From Streptomyces vietnamensis (GTDB lineage Bacteria; Actinomycetota; Actinomycetes; Streptomycetales; Streptomycetaceae), in assembly GCF_000830005.1 (NCBI RefSeq), contig NZ_CP010407.1, positions 5,336,001 to 5,400,000 on the forward strand: 64,000 nucleotides of DNA. Direction: 5' to 3'. The notes beneath the pieces are model-generated. The model was given only the letters and a program-made list of their open reading frames with translations, ran no database searches and had not been told where the DNA came from. This document shows, one piece after another, positions 4,932-10,639 of the stretch. Numbering within the stretch: the first letter of the stretch is position 1; the number at the start of each line of letters is the position of its first letter. The translations under genes and the position numbers were made by a program.

Positions 4932-5171
4932 ATGTCCCGTATCGCCAAGGCCGTAGTCCTGACCGTCGGTGCCGCCGCCGCCGTCGCCGGCGCCGCCGGT
5001 GCCGCCTCCGCCGACGCCGGCGCCGAGGCCGCGGCCGTGAAGTCCCCGGGTGTCATCTCCGGCAACGTCGTCCAGGTCCCGATCCACATCCCGGTCAACC
5101 TCTGCGGCAACACCGTCAGCGTCATCGGCGCGCTGAACCCGGCCTTCGGCAACACCTGCGTCAACGCCTGA
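4932..5171 (+). CDS. Chaplin (short type)
   Basis: 79 residues: a Sec signal peptide (residues 1-27, ending near ASADA) and a single chaplin domain with GNVVQVPIHIPVNLCGNTVSV and a closing FGNTC. The two conserved cysteines can form the intramolecular disulfide of chaplins. Short chaplins are secreted, assemble into amyloid-like fibrils and lower surface tension so that aerial hyphae can emerge. The ATG at 4932 follows GAGGAG; a longer in-frame start upstream lacks a signal peptide at its N-terminus and was not used. It is transcribed alone and ends at a strong terminator at 5199-5240. Confidence 0.95.
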   Translation: MSRIAKAVVLTVGAAAAVAGAAGAASADAGAEAAAVKSPGVISGNVVQVPIHIPVNLCGNTVSVIGALNPAFGNTCVNA

Positions 5172-5447: not shown

Positions 5448-6305
5448 ATGCGTCCCCTGGCTACACGCCGTCTCACCGCCCTGGCGATATCCGCCGCCAT
5501 CACCCTCGGCACGGCGGGAACCGCCTTCGCCGGCGAACACCACCCGTCCCCCGCGGTCGGCCGGGCCGCCCACGAGCCCCTCCCGGACACCACCGCCCTC
5601 CTGGCCCAGGCCGAAGCACTCGGCGAGCTCGGCTCGGTGACGACCCCCGTGACCGAACTCGTCACGGCCGCGCTCAAGGCCGACTCCGGGCAGCTGCCCG
5701 CGGCCGACGTCGAGGCCTTCAAGAGCAAGATCGCCGCGGCGGTCGACGAGGCGAAGGCCACCGCCCCGGCCCCGCTCCCGGACGCCCCCGCACCGGAGAC
5801 CCCGGTGACCCCGCCGGCCGCGGACCTCCCGGTGAAGCCCCCGGCGGCCGAACTCCCCGTGACCCCGCCCGCCGCCGAGCTCCCGGCCACGCCCCCGGCG
5901 GCCGAGCTCCCGGCGAAGCCGCCCGCCGCGGACCTCCCCGTCACGCCGCCCGCCGCCGAGCTCCCGGCGAAGCCGCCCGTGACCCTGCCCGTCGTGGCCG
6001 ACGCGAAGGCCGCCCCGGCGGACGTCGTGTCCGACGCCCTCGCCTCGATCCAGAAGGCCGTCGCCGGCCTGCTCGCCGCCGTCACCTCCGGCGACGCCGG
6101 CGGAGTCGTACCGCAGGTCACCTCCACGCTGACCTCGCTGGTCAACCTGGTCACCGCCACCCTGCTCGGTAGCGGACTGCCCGCTCCGGACCTGCCCGAT
6201 CTGCCCACGCTCCCGGCGCTCCCGGTCACCGCGCCCGAGCTGCCCGTCGACCCGCCGGTCGCCGCGCCCGAGCTGCCGGTCAAGCCCCCGCTGCCCGTCC
6301 GGTAG
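5448..6305 (+). CDS. Secreted Pro/Ala-rich repeat protein
   Basis: 285 residues with a clear signal peptide (MRPLATRRLTALAIS to TAFAGE). After a spacer, residues ~118-180 hold six consecutive nine-residue repeats of the form (V/A)(T/K)PPAA(E/D)LP plus a partial seventh, with T and K mostly alternating. A helical region (ALASIQKAVAGLLAAV) and a second APELPV(D/K)PP segment close the protein. There is no LPXTG motif and no transmembrane anchor. The rod-like repeats and position between a chaplin and other secreted proteins suggest an extracellular matrix or wall-spanning role; no family is recognised. Confidence 0.85.
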   Translation: MRPLATRRLTALAISAAITLGTAGTAFAGEHHPSPAVGRAAHEPLPDTTALLAQAEALGELGSVTTPVTELVTAALKADSGQLPAADVEAFKSKIAAAVDEAKATAPAPLPDAPAPETPVTPPAADLPVKPPAAELPVTPPAAELPATPPAAELPAKPPAADLPVTPPAAELPAKPPVTLPVVADAKAAPADVVSDALASIQKAVAGLLAAVTSGDAGGVVPQVTSTLTSLVNLVTATLLGSGLPAPDLPDLPTLPALPVTAPELPVDPPVAAPELPVKPPLPVR

Positions 6306-6529: not shown

Positions 6530-6805
6530 ATGAAGCCCACCAAGGTTGCCGCGGTCGTCGCCGGTTCGATGATGGCCCTGGGTGCCGCCGCGCCCGCCAT
6601 GGCCACGGAGGCGCTGACCCCCACCAGCCTGAACGGTGGCCTCGAAGCGATCGCCGCCCACGGACTGAAGAGCGACATGCTGAGCAGCACCACGGACGGC
6701 TCCCCGGTCCAGACCGTGACGAAGGCGGCGGAGCAGCTGAACACCGCCACCAAGGGCGCCCAGCTGCTCGGTGGCCTCCCGGTCCCCGGCGGTCTGGCCG
6801 GCTGA
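6530..6805 (+). CDS. Small secreted protein, unknown function
   Basis: 91 residues. A signal peptide (MKPTKVAAVVAGSMMALG to AMATEA) leaves a mature peptide of ~65 residues with no cysteine, ending GGLPVPGGLAG. AGGAAGGA before the ATG supports the start. It carries no chaplin or rodlin motif. It sits in the surface island between the Pro-rich protein and the HPTG-repeat protein, so it is probably part of the developing hyphal surface; that role is inferred only from context. Confidence 0.8.
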   Translation: MKPTKVAAVVAGSMMALGAAAPAMATEALTPTSLNGGLEAIAAHGLKSDMLSSTTDGSPVQTVTKAAEQLNTATKGAQLLGGLPVPGGLAG

Positions 6806-6874
6806 CACCACCTCAGTACACCTGTCCCCACGGGCACTTACGGCGGCCCTCCGTGCCGCTGTTCCTCACGGTCG

Positions 6875-6900
6875 GCTGATCGAATGATTTTCTGATCAGC
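6875..6900. other. Inverted repeat GCTGATC / GATCAGC
   Basis: Seven-base arms separated by 12 A/T-rich bases, 70 bp after the small secreted gene and 140 bp before the HPTG-repeat gene. It could be a weak terminator for the former or an operator for the latter. Confidence 0.35.
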
Positions 6901-7039
6901 TGCCGTGTGGCCCCGGCTTCACGCCGGGCGTCGACCCATACCTTTTGGCCGATCCCACTGGAACGTCGGTGCGGATCAGGCCGGTCGGAGCGAGGGGGGA
7001 TCCTCGCCGGTCTCTCCCTTTCTCCAGAGGAAGAGCGGT

Positions 7040-8128
7040 ATGCGGTCCATCATCAGCAGGAAAGTACTCACCGCGGCGGCAGCGACCGGCATCCTGTCGC
7101 TGAGTGGGGGATTCGCCCTGGCCGCGAACTCCCACTCCGGTACGGGCGACGGTCCGGGCTCCGCCACGGCCGGCCATGTCCAGGCACGACCGCCGGCCGA
7201 CGCCTGCGGCAAGAGCACGGGACTCGGCGACCTCTGCGCCCAGCCGTCGGAGTACCCCGACGGCTACGGCGACGACGATCACGGTGGCTACGGCGACGAC
7301 GATCAAGGCGGCTACGGCGACGACCACGATCACGATCACGGCGGTGGCCCGACGGGTTACCCGACGAGTCACCCGACGGGGCATCCCACGGGCCACCCCA
7401 CCGGTCACCCGACCGGCCATCCCACGGGCCACCCGACGGGTCATCCGACCGGGCATCCCACGGGCCACCCGACGGGTCATCCGACGGGGCACCCCACCGG
7501 GCACCCGACCGGGCATCCCACGGGCCACCCCACCGGTCACCCGACCGGCCATCCCACGGGCCACCCCACCGGCCACCCGACTGGCCATCCCACGGGCCAC
7601 CCCACCGGCCACCCGACTGGCCATCCCACGGGCCACCCCACTGGGCACCCCACGGGTCACCCGACTGGCCATCCCACGGGGCACCCCACTGGGCACCCGA
7701 CCGGTCACCCCACCGGCTATCCCACGGGCCACCCGACCGGTCACCCCACCGGGCACCCGACGGGACACCCCACCGGGCACCCGACGGGACACCCCACCGG
7801 GCACCCGACGGGACACCCCACCGGGCACCCGACGGGTCACCCGACCGGGCATCCCACGGGTCACCCCACCGGCCACCCCACCGGTCACCCGACGGGCTAC
7901 CCGACCGACCACCCCACCGGGTACCCCACCGATCACCCGACCGACCACCCCACCGGCAAGCCCACCTGTGAGAAGCCCGCGCCCGGTGAGTGGCCGCACG
8001 GGTGTGGGGAGCTGCCCGACACCGGTAGCGAGCCCATGCTCATGGGCGCGGCCGCGGTCAGCGCCGCGCTGATCATCGGCGGCACCGTCGTCTACCTCCG
8101 CGGCGGACGGATCGCCCGCCGGCACTGA
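7040..8128 (+). CDS. LPDTG-anchored cell-wall protein with about 50 HPTG tetrapeptide repeats
   Basis: 362 residues from the ATG at 7040 (upstream AGAGGAAGAG). Order: signal peptide (1-~30); a short segment with [11 protein letters not shown]; three GYGDDD-type Asp/His/Gly units ([27 protein letters not shown]); then one PTG plus 50 tetrapeptides (H/Y)PT(G/S/D), nearly all [24 protein letters not shown]; a hydrophobic segment; and a basic tail (RGGRIARRH). LPXTG-hydrophobic-basic is a sortase signal, so the protein should be covalently attached to peptidoglycan with the repeats spanning the wall. The histidine-rich rod could bind metal (inference). Synonymous codons vary between repeats, suggesting the peptide pattern is under selection. 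Confidence 0.93.
7346..7957 (+). repeat. Coding 12-bp tandem repeat (HPTG units)
   Basis: About fifty 12-bp units encode His-Pro-Thr-Gly with a few Tyr, Ser and Asp variants at the two ends. The units differ mainly at third codon positions (CAC/CAT, CCG/CCC, ACG/ACC, GGT/GGC/GGG). Copy number is likely to vary between strains by slippage or recombination. Confidence 0.95.
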
Positions 8129-8232: not shown

Positions 8233-8745
8233 ATGAATCTGCGTTCTCACGCGGGCATGGGACTCCTCATGACCGCATTTGCCTCCGCCGCCCTGGTCTC
8301 TCCCGCCGCCGCCGTCGAGGCGCCGGTGATCGTCCCGCTCCAGGGCCTGGAGCCGGTCCTGCCGATGGACGCGCCGACCATCGCGACCGGCGTTCCCGTC
8401 CCGATGCCCGGCGCGCCCACCGGCTTCCAGAAGGGCGTCGGCGCGCTCCCCGACGTCACCCTGCCGAGCGTGCCGCTCACCGGCACCCTGCCGGAGACCG
8501 TCGTCGACGCGCCGCTGCCCCAGCTCCTCAAGGGCAGCGAGCCCGGCAGCGCCCTGCTGAGCAGCCCGCACTCGGAGATGCAGGCGGCCACCCCCGGCGC
8601 CGTCCTCGGCACCCCGGTGGAGGCCCCGCGCGGCAACGGGCTCGCCGGGATCCCGCACCTGGCGAAGCCTCAGCTCGGTCTCCTCACCCCGGTGCTCAGC
8701 GGAGCCCTCGACCCCCAGCTCGGGCTGGCGCCGGACGCGGGCTGA
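8233..8745 (+). CDS. Secreted protein of unknown function
   Basis: 170 residues with a signal peptide (MNLRSHAGMGLLMTAF to AAAVEA). The mature part is rich in Pro, Leu and Gly (VPLQGLEPVLP, GTLPETVVDAPLPQLL) and has no cysteine or recognisable domain. The ATG at 8233 was chosen because it starts the signal peptide; the ribosome-binding site is weak. It is expressed in the same direction as the flanking chaplin and repeat protein but each has its own terminator, so the island looks like a series of single-gene units. Confidence 0.78.
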   Translation: MNLRSHAGMGLLMTAFASAALVSPAAAVEAPVIVPLQGLEPVLPMDAPTIATGVPVPMPGAPTGFQKGVGALPDVTLPSVPLTGTLPETVVDAPLPQLLKGSEPGSALLSSPHSEMQAATPGAVLGTPVEAPRGNGLAGIPHLAKPQLGLLTPVLSGALDPQLGLAPDAG

Positions 8746-9046: not shown

Positions 9047-9325
9047 ATGTCTCGCATCGCGAAGGCTGCCGCTGTTCTCGCAGGCACGGGTGCCGTTGCC
9101 CTCAGCGGAGCCGGCCTGGCCGTCGCCGACTCGGGCGCCGAGGCCGTCGCCGCCCACTCGCCCGGTGTCGCCTCCGGCAACGTCGTCCAGGTTCCGGTCC
9201 ACGTCCCGGTCAACCTCTGCGGCAACACCGTCAACGTCATCGGTCTGCTGAACCCGGCGTTCGGCAACACCTGCATCAACGCCGACGGTGGCCACGGGCA
9301 CGGCGACGGCGGCTACGGCGGCTGA
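9047..9325 (+). CDS. Chaplin with a His/Gly/Asp-rich C-terminal tail
   Basis: 92 residues: signal peptide (MSRIAKAAAVLAGTGAVALS to LAVADS), chaplin domain (GNVVQVPVHVPVNLCGNTVNV, FGNTC), then an added tail DGGHGHGDGGYGG that most short chaplins lack. AAGGAG precedes the ATG. It converges on melC2 and shares a bidirectional terminator with it. I recall that S. coelicolor chpG also neighbours melC, so this is probably the chpG-position chaplin. The tail resembles the Gly/Asp/His units of the wall protein at 7040-8128, which hints at a shared metal-rich or matrix environment (inference). Confidence 0.95.
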   Translation: MSRIAKAAAVLAGTGAVALSGAGLAVADSGAEAVAAHSPGVASGNVVQVPVHVPVNLCGNTVNVIGLLNPAFGNTCINADGGHGHGDGGYGG

Positions 9326-9336
9326 TCCCCCCGCTT

Positions 9337-9381
9337 CACATGAATGTCCCCCCGGCCGTCGGCCGGGGGGACATTCATGTG
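9337..9381. terminator. Bidirectional terminator between chaplin and melC2
   Basis: A perfect 21-bp stem with a 3-base loop between two convergent genes, ending 6 bases before the melC2 stop codon. Confidence 0.92.
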
Positions 9382-9387
9382 TGGGGC

Positions 9388-10254
9388 TCAGGCGTACCGG
9401 TAGATCCGGCTGTGGTCGAACATCGACGCCGGGGTCACGCCCCAGGGAGCCATCGGCTCGTGCCGGGCGGCGACCTTGCGGTACTGCGCGTCCCCCAGGG
9501 GCGGCGGCTCGGCCGGCAGGTAGGCGGCCCCGGGGTTCCGCTGCTGCCAGCGCGACCAGAGCAGGTCGACGAAGGAGTGGTGCAGCCAGAAGACCGGGTC
9601 GTTCACGGAGCCGCCGCCGAGCATCAGGCCGCCGACCCAGCGGTGCACCCGGTTGTGGATGCGGAACCGCTCGTTGCCGCGGCCCGGCGCCCAGCCCTCC
9701 AGGGCGTTGCGGAAGCCGGTGGAGCTCGTCGAGTTCCAGGGCGCCGCGTCGTACACCCGCTCGCGCATCACCTCGTCGAGCTGGGCCGGGGTGGGCAGCG
9801 TGATCGGGTCGCGGGGGCGGCCGAAGTCCCTGGTCAGATACCGGACGTCGGTCATCGACTCGGTGATCGTCCACCGCCCGGCGGAGGCCGCGAAGGGGCC
9901 CGTCATCACCTGGAGGTCGGCCCGGCGGCCGTTGCCGCCCATGAAGTCCTCGCGCCAGATCGAGGAGGCCGGGGAGTTGTCCCGGGTCCAGTCCCAGTAC
10001 GGGACGGAGACCGTCGGGTCGATCCGGCGCAGGGCCGTCTCGAACTCGAGCAGGAACTTGCGGTGCCAGGGCAGGAAGCTCGGCGTCATGTGGGCGATCC
10101 GCAGCCGGCCCTCCCCGTCGGCCGTGTAGTGGTCGATGTGGGTGCGGACGAAGCGGTCGTACGCACCGGTGCGCTTGAGCTCCAGGACGGCAGCGACGAA
10201 CTTGCGGCGCTCGGCGCCGGTCAGATCGCGCTGGTTCTTACGCGTGTACACCAC
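9388..10254 (-). CDS. melC2: Tyrosinase (copper monophenol monooxygenase)
   Basis: 288 residues, the usual Streptomyces MelC2 size. It oxidises tyrosine to dopaquinone, leading to melanin. CuA ligands are visible as His39, His55 and His64 (THIDHY, IAHMTPSFLPWHRKF); CuB ligands are in IHNRVHRWVGG and NDPVFWLHHSFVD. SVPYWDW is also conserved. There is no signal peptide: MelC2 leaves the cell by hitch-hiking with MelC1 through Tat. The GTG start overlaps the end of melC1 by 17 bases, so the two are translationally coupled. Confidence 0.97.
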   Translation of the reverse strand: MVYTRKNQRDLTGAERRKFVAAVLELKRTGAYDRFVRTHIDHYTADGEGRLRIAHMTPSFLPWHRKFLLEFETALRRIDPTVSVPYWDWTRDNSPASSIWREDFMGGNGRRADLQVMTGPFAASAGRWTITESMTDVRYLTRDFGRPRDPITLPTPAQLDEVMRERVYDAAPWNSTSSTGFRNALEGWAPGRGNERFRIHNRVHRWVGGLMLGGGSVNDPVFWLHHSFVDLLWSRWQQRNPGAAYLPAEPPPLGDAQYRKVAARHEPMAPWGVTPASMFDHSRIYRYA

Positions 10255-10639
10255 GCGGGCTCCCTCCCGTCGGGTCGGTGGGGACGCCGTGGGCGCCCGC
10301 GAGCGGGGAGAGCCGGGCCGCGCCCAGCTCGTCCACGGCCGCGCGGGTGGCCGCCAGGGGCGTCGGGCAGGACTCGTAGTGGTCGATCGGGGTGACGTAG
10401 CCGCCGTCGGCGCAGCGCATCAGATGCAGCGGCCGGCCGTCGACGAGGGCCGTCGGTTCGCCCCCGGGTCCGGAGAAGCCCAGGAGGCGACGGCCCCGGT
10501 ACATCTCGTCGAAGGCGTGCGGATCATGTTCGACCCCCGATTCCGGTCGGGTCGCGATACGGCCGAGCGCACCACCCGTGAAGGCGGTGACGGCCAGGGC
10601 GAACAGGGACCGCAATGCGACGCGGCGCGGGACGATCAT
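10238..10639 (-). CDS. melC1: Tyrosinase copper chaperone/co-factor
   Basis: 133 residues. The N-terminus has paired arginines followed by a hydrophobic stretch (PRRVALRSLFALAVTAF), consistent with the Tat signal of MelC1 proteins. The conserved C-terminal part (FDEMYRGRRLLGF, GRPLHLMRCADGGYVTPIDHYESCPTPL) contains the His and Cys residues used to load copper into MelC2 and the tyrosine that plugs the active site. MelC1 binds apo-MelC2, delivers Cu and guides export. It is first in the operon, with an SD (AGGAGAT) 7 bases upstream of the ATG. Confidence 0.95.
   Translation of the reverse strand: MIVPRRVALRSLFALAVTAFTGGALGRIATRPESGVEHDPHAFDEMYRGRRLLGFSGPGGEPTALVDGRPLHLMRCADGGYVTPIDHYESCPTPLAATRAAVDELGAARLSPLAGAHGVPTDPTGGSPRGVHA

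Follow-up and report, generated by a model that had tools for sequence, protein, structure and literature searches.

The chaplin-tyrosinase island

The window, that is, the whole stretch of 64,000 nucleotides analysed here, contains an island of genes for secreted proteins in which the gene of interest, encoding a repeat protein of 362 amino acids, lies between two short chaplin genes. The features of this island and the parts of the repeat protein are the following.

4932..5171, + strand: short chaplin, which we take to be ChpF-like (PF03777, E 3.4e-28)
5448..6305, + strand: secreted protein with PPAAEL-type repeats, island neighbour (open reading frame, repeat search and locus comparison)
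6530..6805, + strand: small secreted protein of the island (present in all 31 loci, L035-L065)
6868..6906, + strand: inverted repeat, conserved upstream of the gene (RNA fold z -3.6)
7026..7033, + strand: Shine-Dalgarno-like AGAGGAAG in the conserved leader (leader alignment)
7040..8128, + strand: whole gene, 362 aa, with signal peptide, probable worn chaplin head, PT rod and LPDTG anchor
7040..7123, + strand: signal peptide, residues 1-28 (conserved in alignments A1, A3 and A5; cleavage site inferred)
7124..7240, + strand: mature head, residues 29-67 (39 residues), probable degenerate chaplin domain with Cys56 and Cys66 (profile comparisons)
7253..7345, + strand: Gly-Tyr-Asp-His linker, residues 72-102 (similar to the GYGDD linker of the L025 protein)
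7346..7969, + strand: 52 xPTx units (45 HPTG), residues 103-310 (PF04886 PT repeat, E 1.2e-49)
7967..8005, + strand: Cys310-to-Cys322 unit, resembling the CEEPxPGEEPEPGC units of many orthologues
8012..8026, + strand: LPDTG sorting motif, residues 325-329 (L, P, T and G unchanged in all 21 rows of A5)
8036..8125, + strand: membrane helix (residues 333-354 in the model) and basic tail (sequence and AlphaFold model)
8233..8745, + strand: secreted protein, island neighbour (in 25 of the 27 loci that reach it)
9047..9325, + strand: short chaplin, presumably ChpG-like (PF03777, E 2e-28)
9388..10254, - strand: tyrosinase MelC2 (PF00264)
10238..10639, - strand: MelC1 cofactor (PF06236)

A scan of one genome per species revealed 34 loci, of which 31 (L035-L065) carry a member of the family and three (L066-L068) are ordinary long chaplins. 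The chpF-like gene and the 6530-type neighbour were present in all 31 family loci; four of these end too early for the rest of the island, and the chpG-like chaplin and the tyrosinase were found in all 27 that reach that far, whatever the type of the rod. A prior reading of this DNA from its letters only (the sequence-only reading) had set the gene in a chaplin island, between two chaplins, as is the case, and next to a copper tyrosinase, which is not the next gene, since the gene at 8233-8745 and the chaplin at 9047 intervene. The protein encoded at 5448-6305 has PPAAEL-type repeats of 27 bp and diverges fast between loci (45-79% where matched). A GC-rich inverted repeat at 9328-9387, between the convergent chaplin and tyrosinase genes, is likely a two-way terminator. 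Five Rfam matches to eukaryotic microRNAs, including those at 9328-9387, were all under the gathering scores and were rejected.

The repeat protein and its array

An in-frame GTG at 6905 allows a longer mechanical open reading frame; the ATG at 7040 was preferred as the start because the leader and this ATG are conserved in the aligned loci. The LPDTG occupies residues 325-329, and after it come a hydrophobic segment and then RRH, so that the LPxTG motif, membrane helix and basic tail characteristic of sortase substrates are all present. This supports the earlier description of an anchored wall protein with a repeat rod, which would be secreted. The sequence-only reading also suggested that the repeats could make a rigid rod of polyproline type; the AlphaFold model shows disorder (mean pLDDT 50), the membrane helix being the only predicted structure.

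The count of 50 (H/Y)PT(G/S/D) tetrapeptides given in the sequence-only reading is exact, and these lie among 52 xPTx units (45 HPTG, 2 YPTD and one each of HPTD, YPTG, YPTS, GPTG and KPTC). The protein has 54 histidines, 46 of them within the array. Tandem Repeats Finder delimited the array at 7348-7966 with a period of 24, and also reported periods of 36 and 48 (scores 524-578); the 24-, 36- and 48-bp periods suggest that it grew by blocks of 2-4 units. Eighteen different 12-mers encode the 45 HPTG units and pN/pS across units 2-51 is 0.059, from which the array is far beyond chance and maintained at the protein level. PF04886 was the sole Pfam match of the protein at E <= 0.01 (166 bits, against a cut-off of 26.2). 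NCBIfam matches to FliH were far under the cut-offs and were discarded as low-complexity noise. A database search with the array only returned at least 15 proteins at E <= 1e-10 among 7998 candidates sharing most words and was uninformative on function; none of the five matches inspected has the head, rod and anchor architecture of the window protein.

The upstream region

Most of the 32 loci share a conserved leader adjoining the start. The centre of the inverted repeat, GAATGATT, was found upstream of all 32 family genes scanned and in none of four island loci lacking the family. Its distance to the ATG is 156-161 nt in 30 of the 32 genes, 193 nt in L061 and 277 nt in L056. The repeat at 6868-6906 might terminate transcription of the 6530 gene, serve as an operator or work as an RNA element. 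A role as regulon motif was rejected, a 24-base version of the element (<=3 mismatches) occurring as a single copy in each of three genomes. The stem-loop into which the repeat can fold showed no two-sided compensatory change in the covariation analysis, whose shuffle control gave no information, as all 500 shuffles equalled the observed values. Using a general consensus, we found no sigma-BldN-like promoter within 350 bp at <=3 mismatches, and one-mismatch sites of this kind before both flanking chaplins.

Distribution of the family

When the head alone served as query, a database search retrieved five proteins, four of them annotated as "hypothetical protein" and one as "LPXTG cell wall anchor domain-containing protein." No description of this family was found in the open-access literature searched, and to this extent the earlier statement that no protein of such make-up has been described holds; relatives without a named function do exist in the databases. 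The comparison set of 35 proteins comprises 29 loci, the window, L023 and four database proteins. It leaves out L063 (36 aa, at a contig end), L065 (frame-shifted), L024 (from the genome of L051) and P0003 (the same as L050), and the head counts (n=34) also leave out L056.

The family was identified in 26 of 392 sampled Streptomyces genomes, including that of the window, and 366 had no family-level match. This count was made with a head profile of 21 rows (A3), for which 312 genomes had some match at E <= 1e-6; 26 genomes matched at E <= 9.8e-24, followed by a gap down to 59.6 bits. Inspection of the 30 best loci showed the family head in the first 26 and chaplins in the four that follow. In wider, overlapping samples (E <= 1e-18), matches came from 3 of the 200 genomes sampled across the taxonomic family (1 of 17 genera) and from 9 of the 197 sampled across the order (1 of 6 genera), all within Streptomyces, the genus of the window. 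A first phmmer search of 61 genomes gave 35 with a match, mostly by PT-repeat similarity on either strand, and was excluded from the counts. The genome of S. venezuelae ATCC 10712 (G015) probably carries a family member (L023). The locus assigned to Microtetraspora glauca (L060) has a Streptomyces-like island and groups among Streptomyces in the tree, possibly because the strain is misnamed. Frame shifts or early ends, within or before the repeats, were seen in L036/L106, L065/L113, L097 and L114, and result from either assembly error or real decay.

The head as a probable worn chaplin domain

The sequence-only reading noted the head but overlooked that it is, by profile comparison, a decayed chaplin domain; the protein is very probably a chaplin-derived anchored rod. 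Single heads align only weakly with chaplins in pairwise BLAST (E 0.002 and 0.006), and the homology claim rests on profiles. With signal peptides removed, hhalign compared the profile of 34 mature heads with that of 38 chaplin domains and gave E 7.7e-5, a score of 23.75 and a probability of 62%; the scores reached at most 17.5 with 60 column-shuffled chaplin profiles, at most 13.5 with 60 column-shuffled head profiles and 7.1 with the reversed chaplin profile. When an HMM of the mature heads was searched against 8132 open reading frames, a partly redundant set enriched for chaplins (103 of 8132), the top 40 non-family matches were 39 chaplins and one frame-shifted family piece. The best chaplin had E 3.7e-5, the first unrelated frame E 0.9, and 98 of the 103 frames with the chaplin pattern were matched at E <= 100.

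The two cysteines are spaced with a span of 19 in 27 of 34 heads and in all 38 chaplins, the latter by the collection pattern itself; in the window protein the span is 11, and its head, with a deletion of 8 residues, is the most reduced of the family. Chaplins are defined by three GN motifs (PMC13251363, partial text). At the second and third of these, GN was present in 36 of the 38 chaplins each, while the asparagine was found in none of the 34 heads and the glycine in 28 and 31 of them. The Cys-Cys loop carries 3.0 charged residues in the heads versus 0.5 in chaplins, and the 12 residues that precede the first cysteine have a hydropathy of -0.14 versus 1.18; the mean hydropathy of the loop is unchanged (0.48 versus 0.45). 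Among 26 family loci, pN/pS was 0.56 for the mature head, 0.22 for the signal peptide, 0.37 for the tail and 0.38 for the neighbouring chaplin. By these ratios, the mature head is evolving faster than any of the other three. PF03777 did not exceed the Pfam cut-off in the window protein; the genome search gave nine matches to this family, none at this gene, which correspond to five short and two long chaplins. As judged from the profiles, the HPTG protein is a further chaplin relative, invisible to Pfam.

Fixed ends and an exchangeable rod

The signal peptide, the head with its Cys pair and the LPxTG tail are conserved across the family. The Cys pair was found in 34 of the 35 proteins (L056 lacks it) and LPxTG was in frame in 31; of the remaining four, three run off the contig end and one is frame-shifted. 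In the alignment of 21 full-length members (A5), C56, C66 and the L, P, T and G of the motif are invariant. The middle is a (HPTG)n array in five of the 35 (the window protein, L036, L037, L044 and L046) and is of this type in 4 of the 26 family members of the genome sample. The others have mostly THPPT, TTPP or PGECEEPEPGEEPEPGCEEP units, with HPTG, THPPT and PGECEEPEPG-type units interchanging, and complete members range from 171 to 380 aa. Proline and threonine stay abundant in every rod while other residues vary: there are 39-54 histidines in the HPTG type, 5-26 in complete proteins of other types and 3 in L056, which has masked bases.

In a tree built from four neighbouring proteins, S. 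tanashiensis, which has a THPPT rod, groups among the HPTG species, and two changes are therefore needed to account for the HPTG type (4 rows). This tree covers 30 of 32 loci; L036 and L056 were dropped (<60% coverage), so that one of the five HPTG-type rows is absent. The two changes and the placement of S. tanashiensis argue that HPTG is one passing lineage version of a PT rod. A long chaplin compared between the genome of the window and an S. venezuelae-like genome (L070/L080) has GTP-type repeats in one of the two and GNP-type repeats in the other before LAETG, and turnover of the rod may be general in anchored chaplins.

An anchored chaplin with an intact domain

A related protein type (INTERMEDIATE; L025-type), of 250 aa, lies in an island of another genome (G003) together with chaplins, a PPAAEL-type gene, a small secreted gene and melC. 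Its single chaplin domain is complete, its linker reads GYGDDSYGHDD, its rod is built of (SYGHDDPTPTPT)n, and it carries LPHTG. BLAST aligned it to the window protein from residue 1 through the linker and rod, and again over the rod and tail to the last arginine, with E-values inflated by low complexity. Among the 120 matches listed of 695 for this type, most are named "chaplin," and a pattern count of the anchor motifs in these 120 gave 85 LAxTG, 25 LPxTG and 10 with neither; anchored chaplins can thus carry LPxTG as well. One of the relatives, P0033, also named chaplin and still matched by PF03777, has worn GN motifs and strand residues and has kept a Cys pair of span 19, a PT/YGDD rod and LPHTG, suggesting from its residues that an anchored chaplin of another lineage, the L025-type one, has begun the same conversion.

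Proposed function and alternatives

We propose, with a probability of roughly 0.45, that the protein is an anchored chaplin that is no longer an amyloid subunit and has turned into a tether of the chaplin sheath. Comparison of genes and proteins is the basis for its descent from a chaplin, the loss of the core features, the retention of the Cys pair, the turnover of the rod, the sorting signal and the place in the island. Beyond these, we infer wall anchoring, an extended rod, an exposed head and disulphides with short chaplins. After export, a sortase would attach the protein to peptidoglycan by its C-terminus; the rod, disordered or extended, would cross the wall and leave the head outside. 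There, the cysteines of the head would bond by disulphides to the products of the two flanking short chaplin genes, and so would fasten or nucleate the sheath while the head itself stays out of the fibre. The exact sequence of the rod would be of little import as long as it is long and rich in proline and threonine. The disulphide step leans on the proposal of intermolecular chaplin disulphides in PMC3079736, the partial text of which states that fibrils do not require the chaplin cysteines and that these may join chaplins to one another.

This proposal is supported by a rod that turns over between fixed ends at a fixed place, by the chaplin homology of heads that have kept the Cys pair (34 of 35) and lost the amyloid features, and by the L025-type protein, which combines an intact chaplin domain with a PT rod and LPHTG in a related island. 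Counted against it are the span of 11 in the window's much reduced head, the lack of the Cys pair in L056, the fast evolution of the head, the unchanged hydropathy of its loop, the hhalign probability of 62% and weak BLAST, the sigma-BldN-like site that was not found, and an LPDTG that differs from the LAXTG preferred by class E sortases (PMC5148588, partial text). LAxTG was found at the anchor site of none of the 35 family proteins, and the genome has eleven sortase matches. It is doubtful that a Streptomyces lineage has gone as far as converting an amyloid coat protein into a mast that is anchored in the wall, no longer forms amyloid and covalently pins the sheath, with the strands lost, the Cys pair kept and a freely exchangeable PT rod added.

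The abundance of proline and threonine in all rods, despite changes in the other residues, would also fit a hydrophilic brush, plain or O-mannosylated (Pmt-type), making up a mucin-like layer within the wall of hyphae or spores and bearing the head as a partnerless relic. A sortase-anchored disordered protein, SspA, matters for the strength of the Actinoplanes sporangium (PMC13293333, partial text), and the genome has four PMT-domain matches (best E 2.5e-15), which give weak support to a brush because the PMT family is over the cut-off in 7 of 14 control genomes too. We consider a brush rather unlikely, as it leaves unexplained both why 34 of 35 heads have kept the Cys pair and why the gene lies among chaplin genes. 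If the protein were instead a functionless, decaying anchored chaplin with a neutrally expanding array, the relatively relaxed mature head (pN/pS 0.56), the deletion of 8 residues in that of the window, the frame-shifted and truncated forms and the 366 of 392 Streptomyces genomes without a family-level match would be accounted for. Some of these frame shifts may be assembly errors in repeats, however, and such decay is improbable given an LPxTG in frame in all but the three proteins at contig ends and the one frame-shifted, the constrained signal peptide and tail, the conserved leader and upstream element, and the strong constraint on the array units.

The least probable explanation, to which we give very little credence, is the one that the sequence-only reading had suggested, namely, that the histidine-rich rod is there for binding metal or for sensing pH; such a rod might also serve the copper tyrosinase. 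The 46 histidines of the array and the recurrence of the HPTG type (5 of 35 family proteins, 4 of 26 in the genome sample) speak for it. Histidine is, however, not a family trait, since complete orthologues without the HPTG array have few of them, and S. tanashiensis, with its THPPT rod, groups among the HPTG species. The tyrosinase lies beside every type of rod (27 of 27 loci), and its neighbourhood is therefore uninformative about the histidines.

Implications for S. venezuelae and the chaplin sheath

Chaplins make aerial threads and spores water-repellent, and the attachment of their sheath to the wall is understood mainly via ChpA-C. According to the authors of PMC13293333 (2026, partial text), no other sortase-dependent surface proteins of Streptomyces have, to their knowledge, been functionally characterised. 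Seven chaplins have been counted in S. venezuelae (PMC12096830, partial text), and the orthologue in this species would be an unlisted, chaplin-derived eighth. According to the same partial text (2025), chpDFG and rdlAB "and intervening genes" were replaced in S. venezuelae. In the S. venezuelae-like genome G015, chaplins are located at 4986237, 5002012 and 5006059 and the orthologue at G015:C1:5004066-5005058, between two of these three clustered chaplins; as the intervening genes were removed, it is probably missing from the published deletion strain. The family offers a traceable case in which an amyloid domain wears away while the Cys pair and the anchor persist, and the erosion of the head with the pair retained makes the role of chaplin cysteines directly testable.

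Comparison with known systems

The array scores well against the PT disordered repeat of PF04886, but this is a compositional family that spans unrelated proteins. SspA, CwpA and CwpB of Actinoplanes missouriensis (PMC13293333 and PMC13251363, partial texts) are similar in being sortase-dependent wall proteins with roles at the surface or in the sporangium, and SspA also in its disordered mature part (PMC13293333, partial text). CwpA and CwpB, likened here by description, differ in having no chaplin domain according to the partial text of PMC13251363. The long chaplins ChpA-C (PF03777) resemble the window protein in the anchor with its sorting signal, a related signal peptide and, very probably, a homologous head; the two long chaplins of this genome have two intact chaplin domains and LAxTG, whereas the window protein has one worn domain and LPDTG. 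The L025-type protein shares with it the signal peptide, the Cys pair, the GYGDD linker, the PT-rich rod, LPxTG and the basic tail, and their islands are alike in melC, PPAAEL-type and small secreted genes, with positions that differ by a few genes. It differs in having retained a full chaplin domain, with its GN motifs and hydrophobic strands.
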